This document shows positions 47,916 through 57,477 of a stretch of 64,000 bases of DNA, one piece after another (the stretch's first letter is position 1; every line of letters begins with the position of its first letter). The notes below the pieces were generated by a model that saw nothing but the letters and a program-made list of their open reading frames with translations, was not told the DNA's origin and made no database searches. A program made the translations under genes and the position numbers. The DNA comes from a bacterium (lineage in GTDB: Bacteria; SZUA-79; Acidulodesulfobacterales; Acidulodesulfobacteraceae), in the NCBI GenBank assembly GCA_021798875.1, contig JAJZBN010000005.1:1-64000 (forward strand), in the 5' to 3' direction.

Positions 47916-48407
47916 ATGGATGTTTTGATTTTAACCGGTTCTAAAAACGATATAGACGACGTAGAAAACGCCGCTCAGACTCTTAAAAAATTTGGAATTT
48001 CTTACGAACTGCATGTATCGTCGGCGCACAGAACTTTAAAAAGAACCATGGAGCTTGTAGAATCCGCTGAAAAAAAAGGCGCAAAGATTATAATAGCGGC
48101 AGCGGGAATGAGCGCACATCTGCCGGGCGTCGTAGCGGCAATGACTATTCTTCCCGTAATAGGCGTTCCTCTTGACGCCTCATCCCTCAACGGGTTAGAC
48201 AGTCTTATGTCCATAGTCCAGATGCCTGGCGGAATACCCGTTGCAACTACTGCAATAGGCAAAAGCGGATGTGTCAATGCCGCCCTTTTAGCGGCATCTA
48301 TTCTTGCCTTATCGGATAAATCTCTGTCGGAAAAATTAAAACAGTACAGAAAAGATATGGCAGACTCGGTAATTAAAGCCGATGAAGAGATTAATTACGG
48401 CAAATAA
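47916..48407 (+). CDS. purE: N5-carboxyaminoimidazole ribonucleotide mutase
   Basis: Purine pathway enzyme of 163 residues. The start VLILTGSKNDIDDV corresponds to the usual GSxSD motif, SSAHRT binds the substrate phosphate, and AAAGMSAHLPGVVAA and VPLDASSLNGLDSLMSIVQMPGGIPVAT are diagnostic of class I PurE. A run of seven G residues 8 bases before the ATG provides the ribosome site. No purK is seen in the window. Confidence 0.95.
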   Translation: MDVLILTGSKNDIDDVENAAQTLKKFGISYELHVSSAHRTLKRTMELVESAEKKGAKIIIAAAGMSAHLPGVVAAMTILPVIGVPLDASSLNGLDSLMSIVQMPGGIPVATTAIGKSGCVNAALLAASILALSDKSLSEKLKQYRKDMADSVIKADEEINYGK

Positions 48408-48550: not shown

Positions 48551-50404
48551 ATGACAAAAATTAAAGATAAGCCTAAATCAGACCGTCCAAGAGAAAAGTT
48601 TATAAAAAATGGACCAGAAACGCTTTCTAAATCCGATCTTTTAGCAATAATGATAGGAAACGGAATAAAAGGCAAGAATGTACAAGAACTATCATCTAAT
48701 ATTATTAAAAAATTCGGCGGCAAATTTCTTGACGTTACCGTAGAAGAATTAACGGCGATAAACGGAATAGGAACGGCAAAAGCATTACAAATAGTTTCCG
48801 CAATATCATTATTTAAAAGATTATACGATGAAGTAAGACAAAAAGATATCGTTATACAAGATTATAAAAATGTCTTATCTTTAACTTACGATTTGCGGGA
48901 TAAAAAAAAAGAATACTTAGTTTGTTTATATATTAACGCTAGAAATGCACTGATAAAAAAAGAGGTTATAAGTATAGGAACTCTGGATAAAAGTTTGATT
49001 CATCCCAGAGAAGTTTTCAACCCCGGAATTAATTTAAACGCTTCTTCCATAATAGTAGTTCATAATCACCCGTCTGGAAATCCCGAACCAAGCGCAGAAG
49101 ACGAAAAAGTAATGGAAAGATTAATAAAAGCGGGAGAATTAATAGGAATTCCGATACTTGATTTTATAATTATAGGAGATAAAGATTGTTATAGTTTTCA
49201 TAAAAAGATAAAGGATTGCGAAAGCAATAATACATATGGGGGCTATGTAGCGGACGGCGAACAGTTAAATTTATTCGACATATTCGAAAATCAAAAAAAA
49301 TATTCTTCAATAAATACCGATAGTGTAAATAAAGATAAAGGCTATAACAATTTACATAGAAAAATAGGTTTTGCAAATATATTGACAAAATCTAATAACT
49401 CATCTGCTTATTTTCGTTTACATAATAGAAGATACCTCGGCAATAAATATAAATTATTGGGGTTTATCGAAGATATTATTTCCGAAAAATGCGGAATTAT
49501 AGAATCGTTTTGCGATATTTTTGCCGGCACCGGAGTTGTAGGTGAAAGATTTAACAGTCATGAAATTCAAATAATTTCCAACGATATTCTTTTCAGCAAT
49601 TATATATGCCTAAAAGCTTTTTTAGGCATGAATACGATTAAAACCGATCTTTACGAAAAAATAGATTACTTAAATAATTTAAATGCCGAAGATGATAATT
49701 ATTTTTCTTTGAATTTTGGCAACACATATTTTTCATTGGCAAACGCAAGAAAAATAGGCATGATTCGTGAAGAAATAGATAAAATAGCATTTAACGAAGA
49801 CGAAAAAAATATACTGCTCTGCTCTTTAATATATGCGACGGACAAAGTCGCCAATACGGTAGGCCATTATGACGCATTTCGTAAAAATATGGATACGATG
49901 CAATCGTTAAAACTTTTAACGCCTTATATAAACTTTTCAAACAACGACAATAATGTAATATACAAAAGCGACGCAAATATTTTAATTAGAAATATCTCTT
50001 GCGACGTACTTTATATAGACCCTCCATATAACTCCAGACAATATTCGGATGCCTATCATCTTTTAGAAAATTTAGCCGAATGGAAAAAACCAAAAGTTGA
50101 AGGTGTTGCAAAAAAAATGGATAGGTCGCACATAAAAAGCCTATACTGTCTGAAAAATGCAGGACTTGCTTTTGAAGACCTCATTATAAACGCAGATTGC
50201 AAACATATACTTGTATCCTACAACAATACCAAAGAATCAAAAGACGAACGCTCTAACGCAAGGATAAGCGACGATAAAATTATACAAACGTTAGAAAACA
50301 AAGGCAGCGTAGAAATTTTTGAAAAAAAATTCAAAGCTTTTAGTACAGGTAAAAGTTTTGATACGGGAAACATTGAACGAATTTTTTATTGCAAAGTGAA
50401 ATAA
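48551..50404 (+). CDS. RadC (MPN domain) fused to D12-class adenine methylase
   Basis: One uninterrupted 617-residue frame joins two families. Residues 1-224 are a complete RadC: helix-hairpin-helix ELTAINGIGTAKALQ (~66-80), then the MPN metalloprotease-like site HNHPSG (171-176) with Asp184. After a ~60-residue linker, residues ~287-617 are a D12-type N6-adenine methylase with RYLGNKYKLL (294-303), the AdoMet motif FAGTGVVGERF (324-334) and catalytic DPPYNSRQY (490-498). It is followed 16 bases later by an AlwI-like endonuclease. The methylase half is presumably one of two needed to protect an asymmetric site; the RadC half is unexplained. Confidence 0.88.
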   Translation: MTKIKDKPKSDRPREKFIKNGPETLSKSDLLAIMIGNGIKGKNVQELSSNIIKKFGGKFLDVTVEELTAINGIGTAKALQIVSAISLFKRLYDEVRQKDIVIQDYKNVLSLTYDLRDKKKEYLVCLYINARNALIKKEVISIGTLDKSLIHPREVFNPGINLNASSIIVVHNHPSGNPEPSAEDEKVMERLIKAGELIGIPILDFIIIGDKDCYSFHKKIKDCESNNTYGGYVADGEQLNLFDIFENQKKYSSINTDSVNKDKGYNNLHRKIGFANILTKSNNSSAYFRLHNRRYLGNKYKLLGFIEDIISEKCGIIESFCDIFAGTGVVGERFNSHEIQIISNDILFSNYICLKAFLGMNTIKTDLYEKIDYLNNLNAEDDNYFSLNFGNTYFSLANARKIGMIREEIDKIAFNEDEKNILLCSLIYATDKVANTVGHYDAFRKNMDTMQSLKLLTPYINFSNNDNNVIYKSDANILIRNISCDVLYIDPPYNSRQYSDAYHLLENLAEWKKPKVEGVAKKMDRSHIKSLYCLKNAGLAFEDLIINADCKHILVSYNNTKESKDERSNARISDDKIIQTLENKGSVEIFEKKFKAFSTGKSFDTGNIERIFYCKVK

Positions 50405-50420
50405 AAATATAAATAAATTT

Positions 50421-52235
50421 ATGAAAAAACCTTGGTCTATCAGCACTACTTTAAGAAATCCCGAAAGATTAAGAGACTTTTTGAAAGTCTTAAAACAACT
50501 TGAAAATAATGAATGGAATAAGGAAAATCAAAAAAAATACCAAATACTCCTAATTAAAGAAAGATTGTACGGTTACGGAAATAATCAGTTCTATAATGGA
50601 CTATCTCAAGACAATATCGATTTAATCGACAACCATCAAAAAGATATTTCATTCTATAAGGCAGAAGAAATATTCGAATCCAAAAAGTATAAAGACTCTC
50701 CAATGAGAGGCAGACAATCTATAAACCCGCTAAAAAAATTCGGATTCGTAATAATAAAAAATGGAAAAATCATTATCACCGATTTAGGGAAACTTTTTTT
50801 AAATGAAAAATTCGACATCGGGGAAATATTTTTTAAAAGTTTTTTAAAATGGCAAATACCTAATCCCGACAGTAATGACTACAGCTATGAAGAAGGATAC
50901 GATATAAAACCTTTCATAGGAGTTTTGCATCTTATCCGCCGTGTTAATGAGAAATATGCAGCGATAGGAAAAATAGAAAAAGGTATCAGCAGGAGCGAAT
51001 TTTCTTTATTCTGCCCTACATTGATTAATTATAAAGATATAGATTTATATGCCGAAAAAATCATTACTCTAAGAAAAAAGACCGAGGGAAAAAATAATAG
51101 GGAAAAAATAAATATTTTTAATAAATATAGTATAGGATTTGCCTCTGAATTTTTAGGAACTTCCGAAAATCAAGAAGTAAAAAAATTGTTAAATAATCTT
51201 AACGATTACGGAGACAATGCAATAAGGTATTTTCGCCTTACGCGTTTTATTTATATCAGAGGCGGAGGATATTATATCGATTTGGAACCGAGAAGATCTA
51301 TTGAAATAAATAAATTGTTAGATTTATATAACGGCAAGTCTCAAAATTTTAAATCAAAAGAATATTATAATGACTATATCTCCGATAATTCCAAACCGGA
51401 ATTGCCATGGGAAACTATAAAAGAACTTTCCGAAATATCAAATAAATTATTAGAAGAAACAATACTGCTTGAAAAAAAATTAAAATTATCTCGAAAATCA
51501 TTTCCTGATTTAAAAAAATTTGATAAAGAAAACATTAAAAAACTTATCGACGATTTAAGGGTTTATCGAAGAGAACTTCAAGAAAAAGAAAATTATCTAA
51601 AATCACAGGAAGTCGAACAAATTAAAAAATATATTGAAGAATTAAAAAACATAAACAAGCTCGATAATAAGTCTATTTTACTTGAAAAACTCATTTCCCT
51701 CGGACTAAACGCTTTAAATGACGCAATAGAAATAAAACCGAACTATCCGGTAGGAGACGATAATGAACCGACCTTTACCGCACCCGGAAATATGCCTGAT
51801 ATTGAATGTTTTTACGGACAACATAACGCAATATGCGAGGTTACGATGTTAACCGGACGTAATCAATGGTATTACGAAGGACAGCCTGTGATGAGGCATC
51901 TGCGGGATTTTGAAAATAAACATAATGATAAAAACACTTTTTGTTTATTTATTGCCCCAAAAATACATCGTGATACGATTAATACTTTCTGGATGGCAAT
52001 AAAATATGAATATGAAGGTAAAAAACAAAGAATTATCCCTCTATCCATAGATAATTTTATAGAACTTTTAAAAATACTAATAGAAATTAAGCAAAACGGA
52101 AATTTTTTGAAACACGATGAACTCTTTCGTTTATATAACAATGTCTTGGAAAAATCAGAAACTATGCCTAATTCTGATCAATGGCTGAAAGATATTCCGA
52201 AAATAATTGCTTCTTGGAAAAAAACCTTAACTTAA
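50421..52235 (+). CDS. AlwI-family type IIS restriction endonuclease
   Basis: The 604-residue protein opens with KPWSISTTLRNPERLRDFLKVLK, as in AlwI-type enzymes, which recognise GGATC or related sites. The nuclease centre is near residues 450-500: PDIECFYGQHNAICEVTMLTGRNQWYYEGQPVMRHL has the PD...E-x-T arrangement of a PD-(D/E)XK fold and the typical GRNQW...E...RHL continuation. It sits between two methylase genes with gaps of 16 and 11 bases, so all three form one restriction-modification operon. Target site is inferred from the family, not seen. Confidence 0.85.
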   Translation: MKKPWSISTTLRNPERLRDFLKVLKQLENNEWNKENQKKYQILLIKERLYGYGNNQFYNGLSQDNIDLIDNHQKDISFYKAEEIFESKKYKDSPMRGRQSINPLKKFGFVIIKNGKIIITDLGKLFLNEKFDIGEIFFKSFLKWQIPNPDSNDYSYEEGYDIKPFIGVLHLIRRVNEKYAAIGKIEKGISRSEFSLFCPTLINYKDIDLYAEKIITLRKKTEGKNNREKINIFNKYSIGFASEFLGTSENQEVKKLLNNLNDYGDNAIRYFRLTRFIYIRGGGYYIDLEPRRSIEINKLLDLYNGKSQNFKSKEYYNDYISDNSKPELPWETIKELSEISNKLLEETILLEKKLKLSRKSFPDLKKFDKENIKKLIDDLRVYRRELQEKENYLKSQEVEQIKKYIEELKNINKLDNKSILLEKLISLGLNALNDAIEIKPNYPVGDDNEPTFTAPGNMPDIECFYGQHNAICEVTMLTGRNQWYYEGQPVMRHLRDFENKHNDKNTFCLFIAPKIHRDTINTFWMAIKYEYEGKKQRIIPLSIDNFIELLKILIEIKQNGNFLKHDELFRLYNNVLEKSETMPNSDQWLKDIPKIIASWKKTLT

Positions 52236-52246
52236 CTTAGAAATTT

Positions 52247-53023
52247 ATGAAACTTAATATAATTTACAACGGCGACTGTATAGAAATATTAAACAGCGTA
52301 ATAGAAAAAAATTCAATAGACCTTATTTTTGCCGATCCCCCCTATAATTTGTCAGGTAATGCTCTAAAATGGGTTGGCAATAAAACAGGCGGCGACTGGA
52401 ATATGGTTAATGAAAATTGGGATAAGATTCCGGATGCCGAGTATTTAAAATTTACCAAAAACTGGATTGAAAGTTGTTATAATGTTTTAAAAAAATCGGG
52501 CTCAATTTGGATTGCTTCAAGTTATCACAATATAGCAGAAATTATAATGACTTTAAAACGGCTTAATTTTAAAATTAACAATATTATTACTTGGTATAAA
52601 ACAAATGCTATGCCTAATATGACAAAAAGAGTATTCACTCATTCGACCGAATTTATAGTCTGGGCAGTTAAGGGCTCAGGTTGGACTTTTAATTACGAGA
52701 CGGCAAAAGAAATAAATCCCGAAAAACAAAAAAACGGAGAAATAAAACAGATGCGGGATTTATGGGAAATGCCGCTTGTTCAGGGCAAGGAACGCATTAA
52801 GGGCGAAGGCGGAAAGGCTTTACATCCTACTCAAAAACCGGAAGAAATGTTAAAAAGAATTATTCTTATTTGCTCTAAAGAAGGAGATATAGTTTTAGAC
52901 CCTTTTTTGGGAAGCGGAACTACAGCAGTTATTGGACAAAGGTTCGGCAGGAAATGGATTGGAATAGAAAAAGAAAAAAAATACGTCGAAATTGCAGAAA
53001 AGCGGCTATGTATTAAAAAATAA
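52247..53023 (+). CDS. Beta-class DNA methyltransferase of the AlwI-like system
   Basis: A 258-residue enzyme with the catalytic motif FADPPYNLSGN near residue 30 and the AdoMet motif VLDPFLGSGTTAV near residue 225, the order of the beta class. HPTQKPEEM is the usual motif before it. The Asp-Pro-Pro-Tyr motif marks N6-adenine or N4-cytosine methylation; a GATC-related N6-adenine target is likely from the DpnA-like central part. It would protect the second strand of the asymmetric site while the RadC-fused methylase protects the first. Confidence 0.88.
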   Translation: MKLNIIYNGDCIEILNSVIEKNSIDLIFADPPYNLSGNALKWVGNKTGGDWNMVNENWDKIPDAEYLKFTKNWIESCYNVLKKSGSIWIASSYHNIAEIIMTLKRLNFKINNIITWYKTNAMPNMTKRVFTHSTEFIVWAVKGSGWTFNYETAKEINPEKQKNGEIKQMRDLWEMPLVQGKERIKGEGGKALHPTQKPEEMLKRIILICSKEGDIVLDPFLGSGTTAVIGQRFGRKWIGIEKEKKYVEIAEKRLCIKK

Positions 53024-53043: not shown

Positions 53044-53631
53044 ATGAAAAATACGATCGAAAAAAGATTTGCGGAAGCAAGAGCGCTCTTAGAGCTTACT
53101 TCAAATAACGAAGAGATTTTAAATACGGTGGAAGACATATCTAAAACAATTATTTCCGCATACGGTAACGGCGGAAAGGTTTTTATCGCCGGAAACGGCG
53201 GGTCGGCGGCGGACGCCCAGCATATCGCGGCGGAGCTTGTTTCGAGGTTTTATAAAGAAAGAAAAGCTCTCGCGGCGGAAAGCCTTACGGTTAATACGTC
53301 AAATCTCACGGCTATAGCAAACGATTACGATTTTTCGGTAGTTTTTTCCCGTCAGCTCGAAGCAAACGCACGCAAAGGCGACGTCTTCTGGGGAATATCT
53401 ACTTCGGGCAACTCCAAAAATATTTTAACCGCAATAAACACGGCAAAAAATATAGGCATGCAAATAATCGGTTTTACCGGCGGAAACGGCGGAAAAATGG
53501 CCGAACCTGGAATGTGCGGCCATCTTATTAAAATTCCGTCTAAAGATACGCCCAGAATCCAGGAAAACCACATTTTAATTGCCCATATAATATGCGAATT
53601 GGTCGAAAACAGCTTGTTTAACGGGGTTTAA
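53044..53631 (+). CDS. gmhA: Phosphoheptose isomerase
   Basis: Converts sedoheptulose-7-phosphate to the heptose phosphate used for the LPS core, a Gram-negative marker. SIS-fold protein of 195 residues with IAGNGGSAADAQHIAAELVSRF, LTAIANDYDF, WGISTSGNSKNI and the closing RIQENHILIAHIICELVE. It follows the restriction operon by 20 bases on the same strand, but the function is unrelated. Confidence 0.95.
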   Translation: MKNTIEKRFAEARALLELTSNNEEILNTVEDISKTIISAYGNGGKVFIAGNGGSAADAQHIAAELVSRFYKERKALAAESLTVNTSNLTAIANDYDFSVVFSRQLEANARKGDVFWGISTSGNSKNILTAINTAKNIGMQIIGFTGGNGGKMAEPGMCGHLIKIPSKDTPRIQENHILIAHIICELVENSLFNGV

Positions 53632-53666
53632 ACTGGATATCTTAGATAATAATCTAAATTAAACCC
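53624..53666. terminator. Possible bidirectional terminator between gmhA and gajB
   Basis: GGGTTTAA (53624-53631) pairs with TTAAACCC (53659-53666), and inside it TTAGAT (53642-53647) pairs with ATCTAA (53652-53657). The structure spans the stop codons of two convergent genes. There is no long T-run, so termination is plausible but not assured. Confidence 0.4.
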
Positions 53667-55579
53667 ATTTCATTCAAAAATTGCGAAGGATCTTCACGTT
53701 TTTTTTGTCCGCTATAAGTAATCCTATGCTTAGAACAACTTATAAATAATTTTTTTTTCGTCCTTGTTAATGCAACATAACAATTTCTTCTTTCTTCTTC
53801 AAGCATTCTAACAGATATGTCGTCATTTTTTAACGACCTGTAATCCGGCCATATTCCTTGATTTAATGAAACGATAAAAACATAATCAAATTCAAGTCCT
53901 TTAGAGGCATGACCTGTTAGTATTGCAACACCTTTTCCTCCGTTTTTTGAACTTAATGCAAGAAAATTTAAAAAATCGCGTAGATTATTGGAATAATACC
54001 CTTCCTTGACAAATCTGTCGTATACATTATCTATAAACTCTTTATCCTTTCTGAAGTTATCTTCATTTAAATCTTCTATAGATGAAAAAAATTCGCTTAA
54101 TTTATCGAAATACTCCTTATATTTTTTCTTCTCTTGGATAAACTCGGATAATATAGCGTAAATTTTATTATCCTTATTTCTATCAATGGTGTTTAATATT
54201 GCTTCTAAAAGACTATAACCGATATTTTTATCTTGTATTTCCTGATAATTGAAATTTAAAAACTCGCATATCTTAAAATAAGCCGTTTTATCATTTTCAT
54301 TAGAAATTAGTTTAAGTAAATTAATAATAAAATTCATTTCTCTGGTTGCTATTTTTTCCTGAAGCATTGGAACAAAATGAGGAATATTGGCTTCGTTCAA
54401 TTTATTATTAATTTCATCCAAAATGTATTTATTTCTTCCTATAACGCATATTAAATTATCCCTGCCGATATCGTTGTTTTTATCGGCTATCAAACTAACA
54501 ATTTTTTCTTTTACGAATCCGGCTTCTTCCGCTTGAGAATCAAATTCGTTAAACTCAAAAGAATCTTCATCTGAAATATCGTTACCTGAACATATAGGTT
54601 TTTTATTCTCTATTCTTATATTGTTATTTGCAATAAGTTTATTTGCAAGTTCTACAACTTTGGAAGGACATCTGAAACTTTCGTTAACCTGTAAAATTTT
54701 CATATCGTATTTTTTACGGAGTTCCAAAAGATATTCAAATTTTGCATCGTTCCATTCATATAATAACTGATCTTCGTCGGCAACTATAAACAAATTTTTA
54801 TAATTGTCCCCACAGATTATCTTTATCAATTCAAATTGCGCCCTATTTGTGTCCTGCCCCTCGTCTATCATAATATATTTATAAATTTGCCTTACATGCT
54901 CAATGATAAATTTTTTATGAAAAAGTTTATATGCTTTCAGTATAAGATCGGAAAAATCAAGTATATTAAGTTCTTTTAGAGTTTTTTCATATAATTTAAA
55001 AATTAATTTAAAATCATCCGAATAATTTTCTGTAATTTTACCGGTATTTATAGATTCCGAATCTATAAGTCTATTTTTTAATTTTATAAAAGCATAGTAA
55101 AAAGAAGGTATAGTGTTTTTTATAATATCGGCATTATAATATTTATCCAAAAGTACTGTAGGTTTATTTTCTCCTTTTCTTTCTTTATCGATTTCAATCT
55201 CAAGCGCATCCTCCAGCAAAGTTATTAAATCTTCGTTGTTATCGTATATTGTAAAATCGTTGCCGACGCCTATATGCTCTCCATATGAGATTAGCATATC
55301 ATAACAAAAACCGTGAAACGTTCCTATAAATGTTCTGTGGACTTCGTTTCCTACAAATTTTTCAACCCTATTTCTCATTTCTTTAGCAGCTTTGTTTGTA
55401 AAAGTAAGCGCTAATATTTTAAATCTTTCATTAATGCTATTACTCAATATATAGGCTATCTTACTGGTTAATACTAAGGTTTTACCAGCACCTGGACCGG
55501 CTAATACTAATAACGGTCTTTCATCATAAGTTATAGCTTCTTTCTGTGACTCCGAAAGCCCCTTTAATATGTCATCCAT
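53654..55579 (-). CDS. gajB: UvrD/Rep-type helicase, Gabija GajB-like
   Basis: Superfamily 1 helicase of 641 residues: Walker A LAGPGAGKT near residue 27, TFTNKAAKEMRNRV, GTFHGFCYDM, Walker B region MIDEGQDTNRAQFELI, VADEDQLLYEWNDA, and the C-terminal LTGHASKGLEFDYVFI and RRNCYVALTRTKK. Immediate linkage (45 bases) to an OLD-family ATPase with TOPRIM motifs identifies a Gabija defence pair, in which GajB acts with the GajA endonuclease. It is longer than the ~494-residue reference protein. This half of the pair looks intact. Confidence 0.85.
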   Translation of the reverse strand: MDDILKGLSESQKEAITYDERPLLVLAGPGAGKTLVLTSKIAYILSNSINERFKILALTFTNKAAKEMRNRVEKFVGNEVHRTFIGTFHGFCYDMLISYGEHIGVGNDFTIYDNNEDLITLLEDALEIEIDKERKGENKPTVLLDKYYNADIIKNTIPSFYYAFIKLKNRLIDSESINTGKITENYSDDFKLIFKLYEKTLKELNILDFSDLILKAYKLFHKKFIIEHVRQIYKYIMIDEGQDTNRAQFELIKIICGDNYKNLFIVADEDQLLYEWNDAKFEYLLELRKKYDMKILQVNESFRCPSKVVELANKLIANNNIRIENKKPICSGNDISDEDSFEFNEFDSQAEEAGFVKEKIVSLIADKNNDIGRDNLICVIGRNKYILDEINNKLNEANIPHFVPMLQEKIATREMNFIINLLKLISNENDKTAYFKICEFLNFNYQEIQDKNIGYSLLEAILNTIDRNKDNKIYAILSEFIQEKKKYKEYFDKLSEFFSSIEDLNEDNFRKDKEFIDNVYDRFVKEGYYSNNLRDFLNFLALSSKNGGKGVAILTGHASKGLEFDYVFIVSLNQGIWPDYRSLKNDDISVRMLEEERRNCYVALTRTKKKLFISCSKHRITYSGQKKREDPSQFLNEMGLI

Positions 55580-55624
55580 AGTTTTAAGTTATTATTATAT
55601 TTAAAATTAATATTGATTTATCTT

Positions 55625-57477
55625 TTATTCAGATTCTAATTTTATTTTATTAAAAAGCTCAATGATTTTATCAGGTATTTCTAAATTATTTTTTATAACG
55701 TGATCAGCCAAGTGATACGCAAACTCCGGTTTACCTTTAGAATCGATAAAACAATTTAAAGTAAAATCTTCTTCTTTATCGCTATATTTTTCATTTTCTA
55801 TTTTGTTATTTAACCATAAGTCATAATTCTTTTTGGAAAATTTTTCATATATAATTTCTTTTATTTTTTCTACGCCATAAAAAGAAATATAATACTTCTC
55901 GAAATCAAAATTATCCGGAAGAAAAATTATGCTGTTTTTCTCAGATTCATAATCTCCATAACCACAATTCGTAAGCGTATTATCAATTTGTTCTTTGGTG
56001 TCCTTTTCTGCATCCGAAAAAATCACCCATTTTAATCCGAGCGATTCTTTGTTGGAAATCTTCAGAAACGGACTATAGGTTTGCCCATCACATGATATTA
56101 CCGAAACGCCTAACCTACCAAATATTCTTTTATCTTTAAAATAATATGGCGCAATCTTTTCTATAAAAATCTTTTCGCTATCGCCTTCGCAAAGAATGAA
56201 AACGGAGGAAAATAATAGATCTGGATTTTTAAATTGAATATATCTTTTTATCATTATTTCTTCATCGTCAGTAAAAAATTTATTATTTTCATAAGCCTTT
56301 TTAGTAAGATTTGGTCTATAATTGAATGATGATTTGTAATACGGTACTCTTTTAATATCTGAAATACCGCCGTTAAGATTAAAAATAACATAATTATAAA
56401 TTTCGGATTGTTCAACTAAATATGGAGAGTGGGTTGAAATTATTTTCTGCCCCTTGATTTCTAATATCTCATGAAATAAAGATTTTTGTAAATGCGGATG
56501 AAGGTGCGCTTCCGGTTCTTCAATGCCTATTATAGGCGTAACATCTTTATTTTTCAAATAATTAGGCAGAATTATTTCTATGTACGCTTTAAAAATAAGC
56601 AGATACATAATATTCTGAATTCCTTAGCCGTGTTCTGAAATAGATATAGTTAAATTAGAATCTGGATTCTTTAAATAAATATCCAAATTTTCAAATAACT
56701 CCCATGTATTTTGTGGAAATGCATTTAAAAAAACAACATCGGATGATTTATTGGATATTTTTATATTATTTTTTATTTCTTTAAGGTTATCCAGCAACAT
56801 TTTAAAAGATTGATTATTGCTAAAATCTAAATTATGTATCTTATCCAACAAATCTTTTAATTCTATATTTTCTTCTTCTTTAAATTCGTTATTTAAATGA
56901 TTTTTTATTTTTCCCCAGAAAGATGTTTTAATAGAAAGTTCTTTTTTTATATCTCTGAGGGATTGAAGGTAAAAAATGGAACAAAAGTTGAATGTTTATA
57001 TGTAAAATCCGATGTTTGCGTTTTTTTAAATCTATTATTGCTTTTATCTACAAAATATCTATATTCTTTAAATTTGTTTTCAAACTCGTCAAAAGCGCAT
57101 TCATAGCAAATCCTAAAATATCTAAGCGGAACATCGCTGACGTCTTTTGTTAAATCTGATTCTTCTGTATTGAATAGTATGAATGTGCCGAATTCCTGAA
57201 TCACGCTTTCCGGAAATTTATCATCATTTCTTTCCGCGAATTCAGGTATAATTTTTATAGGTTCAGACTTTTTAGGATCACTACTGTTTGCATCGGCAAA
57301 AAAATCATTTTCGGTATAATATTGCCTATTGAAACCGATAACTAAATTGACCGCCTGCAAAAAAGAAGTTTTACCGGAATTATTAGGCCCGACAAGTAAA
57401 TTGTAATCCTTTGATAAGTTTACTTTAGTTTCTTTATGTCCTCTAAAATTGTAAATCTCTATTTTACTTATATTCAT
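55625..57477 (-). pseudogene. gajA: GajA-like OLD-family ATPase/TOPRIM nuclease, broken
   Basis: Three readable pieces make one protein. 57477-56947 holds the ATPase start (FRGHKETKVNL, Walker A GPNNSGKTS). A change of frame in the T6 run near 56975 is needed to continue as FYLQSLRDIKKELS. That frame runs to 56626, where an in-frame TAA interrupts EHG*GIQNIMYLLIFKAYIE. The same frame then continues to 55625 with IEEPEAHLHPHLQ (Walker B) and TOPRIM motifs ILCEGDSEKIFIEK and FSDAEKD. The restored length is ~615 residues. One frameshift and one nonsense codon make it a likely pseudogene, unless the sequence is in error. Confidence 0.8.

Follow-up and report, generated by a model that had tools for sequence, protein, structure and literature searches.

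The function of RadC, whose gene is very common among bacteria, is unsettled, and in the stretch of 64,000 nucleotides analyzed here (the window) a complete RadC is joined to a methylase of a restriction operon. This raises the question of whether the fusion is real and, if so, what RadC does for a restriction methylase. The operon lies between purE and gmhA and consists of the following features, the evidence being given in parentheses.

47916-48407, + strand: purE
48551-50404, + strand: RadC-D12 methylase fusion gene, 617 aa (ORF, Pfam, NCBIfam, alignment, structure model)
48560-48784, + strand: UPF0758_N helix-hairpin-helix (HhH) region of RadC, residues 4-78 (Pfam PF20582)
48872-49204, + strand: RadC JAB/JAMM domain, residues 108-218, with the putative metal site E138, H171, H173 and D184, together with S181 (Pfam, alignment, match to 2qlc)
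49208-49411, + strand: disordered linker, residues 220-287 (pLDDT < 50; dN/dS 0.25-0.31)
49262-49276, + strand: QLNLF (QxxLF), residues 238-242, candidate beta-clamp-binding motif (alignment A1; identical to the Pol V motif)
49412-50401, + strand: D12-class N6-adenine methylase domain, residues 288-617, with FAGTG and DPPY motifs (Pfam; Dam-like fold)
50421-52235, + strand: AlwI / N.BspD6I-type restriction nuclease, 604 aa (RE_AlwI; aligned to N.BspD6I 2ewf across its catalytic region)
52247-53023, + strand: CcrM-like N6 methylase, 258 aa (N6_N4_Mtase)
53044-53631, + strand: gmhA

The initial annotation had described a full RadC running in frame into a D12 methylase, with an AlwI-type nuclease and a second methylase directly behind, and both parts of this description were borne out. 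The fusion matches UPF0758_N (residues 4-78, 77.6 bits), RadC (108-218, 131 bits) and MethyltransfD12 (295-547, 116 bits), all far over the Pfam cut-offs, and its N-terminal part matches the NCBIfam RadC equivalog NF000642 with 217 bits against a cut-off of 180. The JAMM ligands E138, H171, H173, S181 and D184 are intact, and are invariant in all the fusions aligned. The nuclease follows after 16 bases and the second methylase after a further gap of 11 bases. RE_AlwI (PF09491) is matched by the nuclease with 282.6 bits (cut-off 23.1), and the alignment with N.BspD6I (E 7e-40, residues 91-567) places E, D, E and E at the positions of N.BspD6I E418, D456, E469 and E482, which we take to be the catalytic residues. 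The second methylase matches N6_N4_Mtase with 208 bits, far over the Pfam cut-off, and presumably modifies the other strand of an asymmetric site. These assignments point to a type IIS (AlwI/BspD6I-like) restriction-modification system whose first methylase has an N-terminal RadC. The AlwI, BstNBI and N.BspD6I systems likewise have the RE_AlwI nuclease and the two adenine methylases expected for an asymmetric site, but the window's first methylase differs from theirs in its RadC and QxxLF linker, and its second methylase is CcrM-like; in plasmid and same-family relatives, that place is taken by another D12-type domain or gene. The system is a new variant of type II restriction-modification. 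Over 113 kb of sequence from the host, there was no signal of GGATC or GAGTC avoidance.

The initial annotation had named two findings that would speak against the fusion, a stop in the linker masked by a sequencing error and absence of the fusion from all relatives, and had proposed a search for other RadC-D12 fusions. That search found the fusion in 16 genomes including the window's, 59-88% identical to the window's copy and spread over several phyla according to kinship labels and record titles; many of the bearers are metagenome-assembled genomes. Because the fusion is in frame and without stops in many relatives, the hidden stop is excluded, and a sequencing or assembly artefact is ruled out on the same grounds. 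Five further bearers belong to the window's genus (G009, G010, G011, where the gene is split over two contigs, G013 and G014; 77-88% identity), and all have the fusion at the same purE-gmhA site. The others are a member of another genus of the family (G021, 67%), representatives of three further high-level groups (G142, 60%; G144, 61%; G636) and six Patescibacteria (G154-G157, G179, G257). The order of fusion, nuclease and second methylase is kept wherever the contig permits and nothing has been deleted. The viral contigs searched contained unfused D12 relatives only, and no RadC-methylase fusion was found in the phage and plasmid records. Long RadC frames from distant genomes (L125-L133) were rejected as candidates, since they end at most 23 residues past the RadC domain and their extra length is N-terminal, and the long-frame match in G833 is a stand-alone RadC whose N-terminus is slightly extended.

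In five operon-free members of the genus (G001, G003, G004, G008 and G012), purE and gmhA are approximately 30 bases apart, and in G005 remnants of both methylases lie between them. Given these empty sites and remnants, the operon behaves as an inserted cassette. Two bearers have lost parts of it. In G021 (L041 9541-11895), a deletion covers the greater part of the nuclease and reaches into the second methylase, whose start is gone, while RadC-D12 is intact, so that the fusion persists without its nuclease; in G013 (L036 5167-6306), the nuclease is shortened to 379 aa, and the fusion and the second methylase are intact.

The structure model consists of two folded halves with a disordered stretch between them (pLDDT < 50 at residues 223-230 and 233-284). 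The modelled RadC half matches RadC 2qlc with a TM of 0.90 by target, and the methylase half matches E. coli Dam. Among the fusions the linker varies in length and sequence (alignment A1), as a real disordered linker does. Within the genus, dN/dS by simple pairwise estimates with high dS was 0.055 for the JAMM domain, where constraint is strongest, 0.075 for the methylase and 0.104 for the HhH part. Most of the linker is free to vary (0.31), except the block around the motif (residues 232-246, 0.10). Purifying selection thus acts on every part of the fusion, and strongly on RadC.

The constrained block contains QxxLF, in which Q238, L241 and F242 do not vary among 13 fusions with identities as low as 59% (alignment A1). 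The motif reads QLNLF in the window and QLTLF, QLSLF, QGTLF, QGVLF, QETLF, QNSLF or QYSLF in relatives, and conserved residues flank it (Y232; a short helix at 241-243). It lies in the disordered stretch of the model, and short linear motifs often sit in such stretches. The consensus of beta-clamp-binding motifs is Q-phi-x-[L/M]-[F/L] with a tolerant position 2, and QLNLF is the clamp-binding motif of E. coli Pol V (PMC11139829). The window's QLNLF fits this consensus, and position 2 deviates from it in several relatives (G, E, N, Y, S). Motifs of the same form occur in the expected region of the hosts' own DnaE: QADLF in the window's host and G014, QVSLF in G155, QDSLF in G342, QIALF in G142 and QTSMF in G144; no motif of that form was seen in G021 DnaE.

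We considered whether QxxLF is a general tail of RadC, and this was rejected, as the approximately 45 stand-alone RadCs end about 4 residues past the JAMM domain and none has the motif. Nor was Q..[LM]F found in any nuclease or partner-methylase ORF checked. The motif does occur before D12 domains that have no RadC: QLPLF behind LexA (G303), QLELF behind a helix-turn-helix (HTH) domain on an Enterococcus plasmid, and QAPLF (G169) and QGALF (G358) in short extensions. Altogether it was present in 6 of 16 independent extensions against 0.2 expected from shuffles (P 9e-9), and in 4 of 14 against 0.19 (P 1.7e-5) when the RadC fusions were left out; both P values concern a motif first noticed in these data, while the idea of clamp binding predates the reading of the non-RadC extensions. 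Four further HTH-type extensions, sampled afresh from plasmids, contained no motif, so its presence ahead of the D12 domain is recurrent and not universal; QxxLF as a feature of all AlwI-type D12 methylases was rejected because several short and HTH-type extensions are without it. In the window's family, D12 methylases of about 697 aa with an AlwI-like nuclease next door (L044-L047) have a conserved QQSF[DN]F block in the N-terminal extension where QxxLF would otherwise stand; this may be a variant of the motif.

The same RadC lineage was also found, as a result new to this analysis, on a C5-cytosine methylase of an HpaII-type system. In G342, RadC and its tail, 53% identical to the window's over 263 residues, are fused to the C5 methylase and followed by an HpaII nuclease, and G831 has a gene of this type, which is 75% identical along its length and is followed by a similar gene. 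As in other HpaII-type systems, a RE_HpaII nuclease stands beside a C5 methylase, and the difference is that the methylase bears the RadC-tail module, with a recognizable HhH motif and with QSSLF (G342) or QGSLF (G831) in the tail. The total thus comes to at least 18 genomes with a RadC-methylase fusion. A tree of 63 RadC domains places all the methylase fusions in one clade (100/99) apart from the stand-alone RadCs, and the RadC-C5 fusion sits among the D12 fusions (98/99). Stand-alone RadC (UPF0758) shares the full HhH and JAMM domain with its ligands and superposes with the model as 2qlc, but has neither the tail nor the methylase. It would appear that one RadC lineage has moved between unrelated methylases and been kept there, which is hard to read as accident. 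A link between RadC and self/non-self marking, suggested in the initial annotation, is supported and strengthened by the 16 genomes, the purifying selection and the attachment to a C5 methylase.

A serine-recombinase-like gene, judged by eye, adjoins both RadC-C5 / HpaII operons (L088 4550-6256, L187 1600-3282), which suggests that they are on a mobile element. Another gene of the window's genus (G011:C78, L048 6522-8045) is a RadC fusion of a second kind, whose partner is the C-terminal portion of a type I HsdM (profile positions 498-809 of 810), and its neighbors are one HsdS-like gene and one HsdR-like gene, the latter short; its RadC is sister to the methylase-fusion clade, and the locus may be a decayed type I locus.

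How RadC could serve a methylase is suggested by the tail. With a probability of roughly 0.45, RadC and the QxxLF tail are a recruiting module that docks the methylase on the replication clamp and couples self-marking to the fork. QxxLF would dock the fusion protein on the DnaN sliding clamp, the HhH/JAMM part would engage a DNA structure there, and fresh daughter DNA, modified on one strand, would receive its methylation immediately after the fork has passed, before the host could be cut by the nuclease. The eukaryotic counterpart would be DNMT1, which PCNA holds, a precedent for clamp docking (PMC9690074) in which the proteins are unrelated and the likeness is in the would-be logic of tethering a methylase to the sliding clamp behind the fork. 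Clamp docking is supported by the invariant residues within an otherwise variable and disordered linker, by identity with the Pol V motif (PMC11139829) and likeness to the host DnaE motifs, by retention of the motif on the C5 methylase and its recurrence before D12 without RadC, and by its lack of a counterpart in stand-alone RadCs, nucleases and partner methylases. On the other hand, taken alone, a motif of five residues is weak evidence, position 2 is often not aliphatic, and the four fresh plasmid extensions, the operon's other methylase and, as far as seen, G021 DnaE are without it; clamp docking also gives no reason for the JAMM domain being the most constrained part. The wider proposal, that a mobile module of RadC and clamp-binding tail couples restriction self-marking to replication on both m6A and m5C methylases, is put forward slightly more tentatively.

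As far as the motif, which the initial annotation did not mention, can guide us, it makes recruitment to the clamp, rather than cleavage, the most economical role. The main rival is a control role for RadC, because the same place of the D12 methylase can also be taken by LexA or an HTH domain, so that it accepts several N-terminal modules, of which some are clearly regulatory. Metalloprotease or nuclease control had been raised as a possibility in the initial annotation. The JAMM domain would then be a metalloprotease, or a non-cleaving sensor, that times or switches the methylase or the nuclease as one of several exchangeable control modules, and cleavage could be directed at the fusion itself, the nuclease or another protein. 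We regard this as unlikely, though worth serious attention: it accords with the invariant ligands and strong constraint of the JAMM domain, and the fold comparison described in PMC11981726 places JAMM proteases nearest to the RadC-like domain, but the operon has no substrate or ubiquitin-like partner, no conserved cleavage-like site was seen in the linker, and the discussion of RadC-family JAB domains in PMC5512222 judges a groove for a ubiquitin tail improbable. The same fold comparison found metalloproteases and no nucleases (PMC11981726), which lowers the standing of another reading, that RadC processes DNA such as gaps, forks or single-stranded incoming DNA that the fusion also marks. RadC has been suggested to act as a nuclease (PMC5512222), which would suit the HhH and JAMM architecture; however, the passages on RadC in PMC5512222 and PMC11981726 report no nuclease activity, nor any established biochemical activity, and the operon already has a dedicated nuclease with intact residues, so that we consider this reading improbable.

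Marginally less probable again is that RadC merely adds DNA affinity through its HhH, which is recognizable in the C5 fusion too, and that QxxLF and its surrounding block lie against RadC or the methylase instead of the clamp. Y232 and the short helix 241-243 could pack locally, but the model has no confident local structure at the motif, which is moreover present where RadC is missing and next to unrelated methylase domains. That the fusion is neutral and was carried along by a selfish restriction-modification operon is very improbable. Such operons do move as cassettes, as the empty purE-gmhA sites and the remnant illustrate, yet a dN/dS of 0.055 in the JAMM domain, an intact RadC in 16 genomes and the same lineage on a C5 methylase argue against neutrality.

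Among the described relatives, RadC-like DinG and the RadC polyvalent proteins also have a RadC domain fused to a DNA-acting protein, the partner being a helicase or a conjugative-element protein and not a methylase in the accounts given of them in PMC11981726 and PMC5512222. Searches of open-licence papers turned up no RadC-methylase fusion or clamp-tethered restriction methylase. Whether the system embodies a new principle hinges on clamp binding. If clamp docking is true, this RadC lineage gains a defined role and bacteria an analogue of clamp-tethered maintenance methylation, which would show how some restriction systems spare freshly copied host DNA. A RadC lineage tied to two unrelated methylases is in any case a handle on RadC function, with methylation, restriction and self-damage as read-outs.

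Some other modules and neighbors were observed. In G303 (L086 5891-7585), a complete LexA repressor (DNA-binding domain and S24 peptidase, with the Ala-Gly site and Ser/Lys present) is fused to the same D12 methylase and precedes the same types of nuclease and second methylase; this would link restriction to the SOS response. Beside the operon in the window is a Gabija-like pair (53654-57477, - strand) with a full-length GajB of 641 aa, and it is probably broken because GajA seems to be divided between two ORFs (56947-57477 and 55625-56608, - strand). Elsewhere in the window's genome, a 628-aa protein (G000:C86, L049 6403-8289) has both D12 and N6_N4 methylase regions, and two short RadC genes of 137 and 143 aa (G000:C111, L050 285-698; G000:C108, L051 6899-7330) consist of the JAB domain without HhH, the former with a GajB-like helicase on the same contig.
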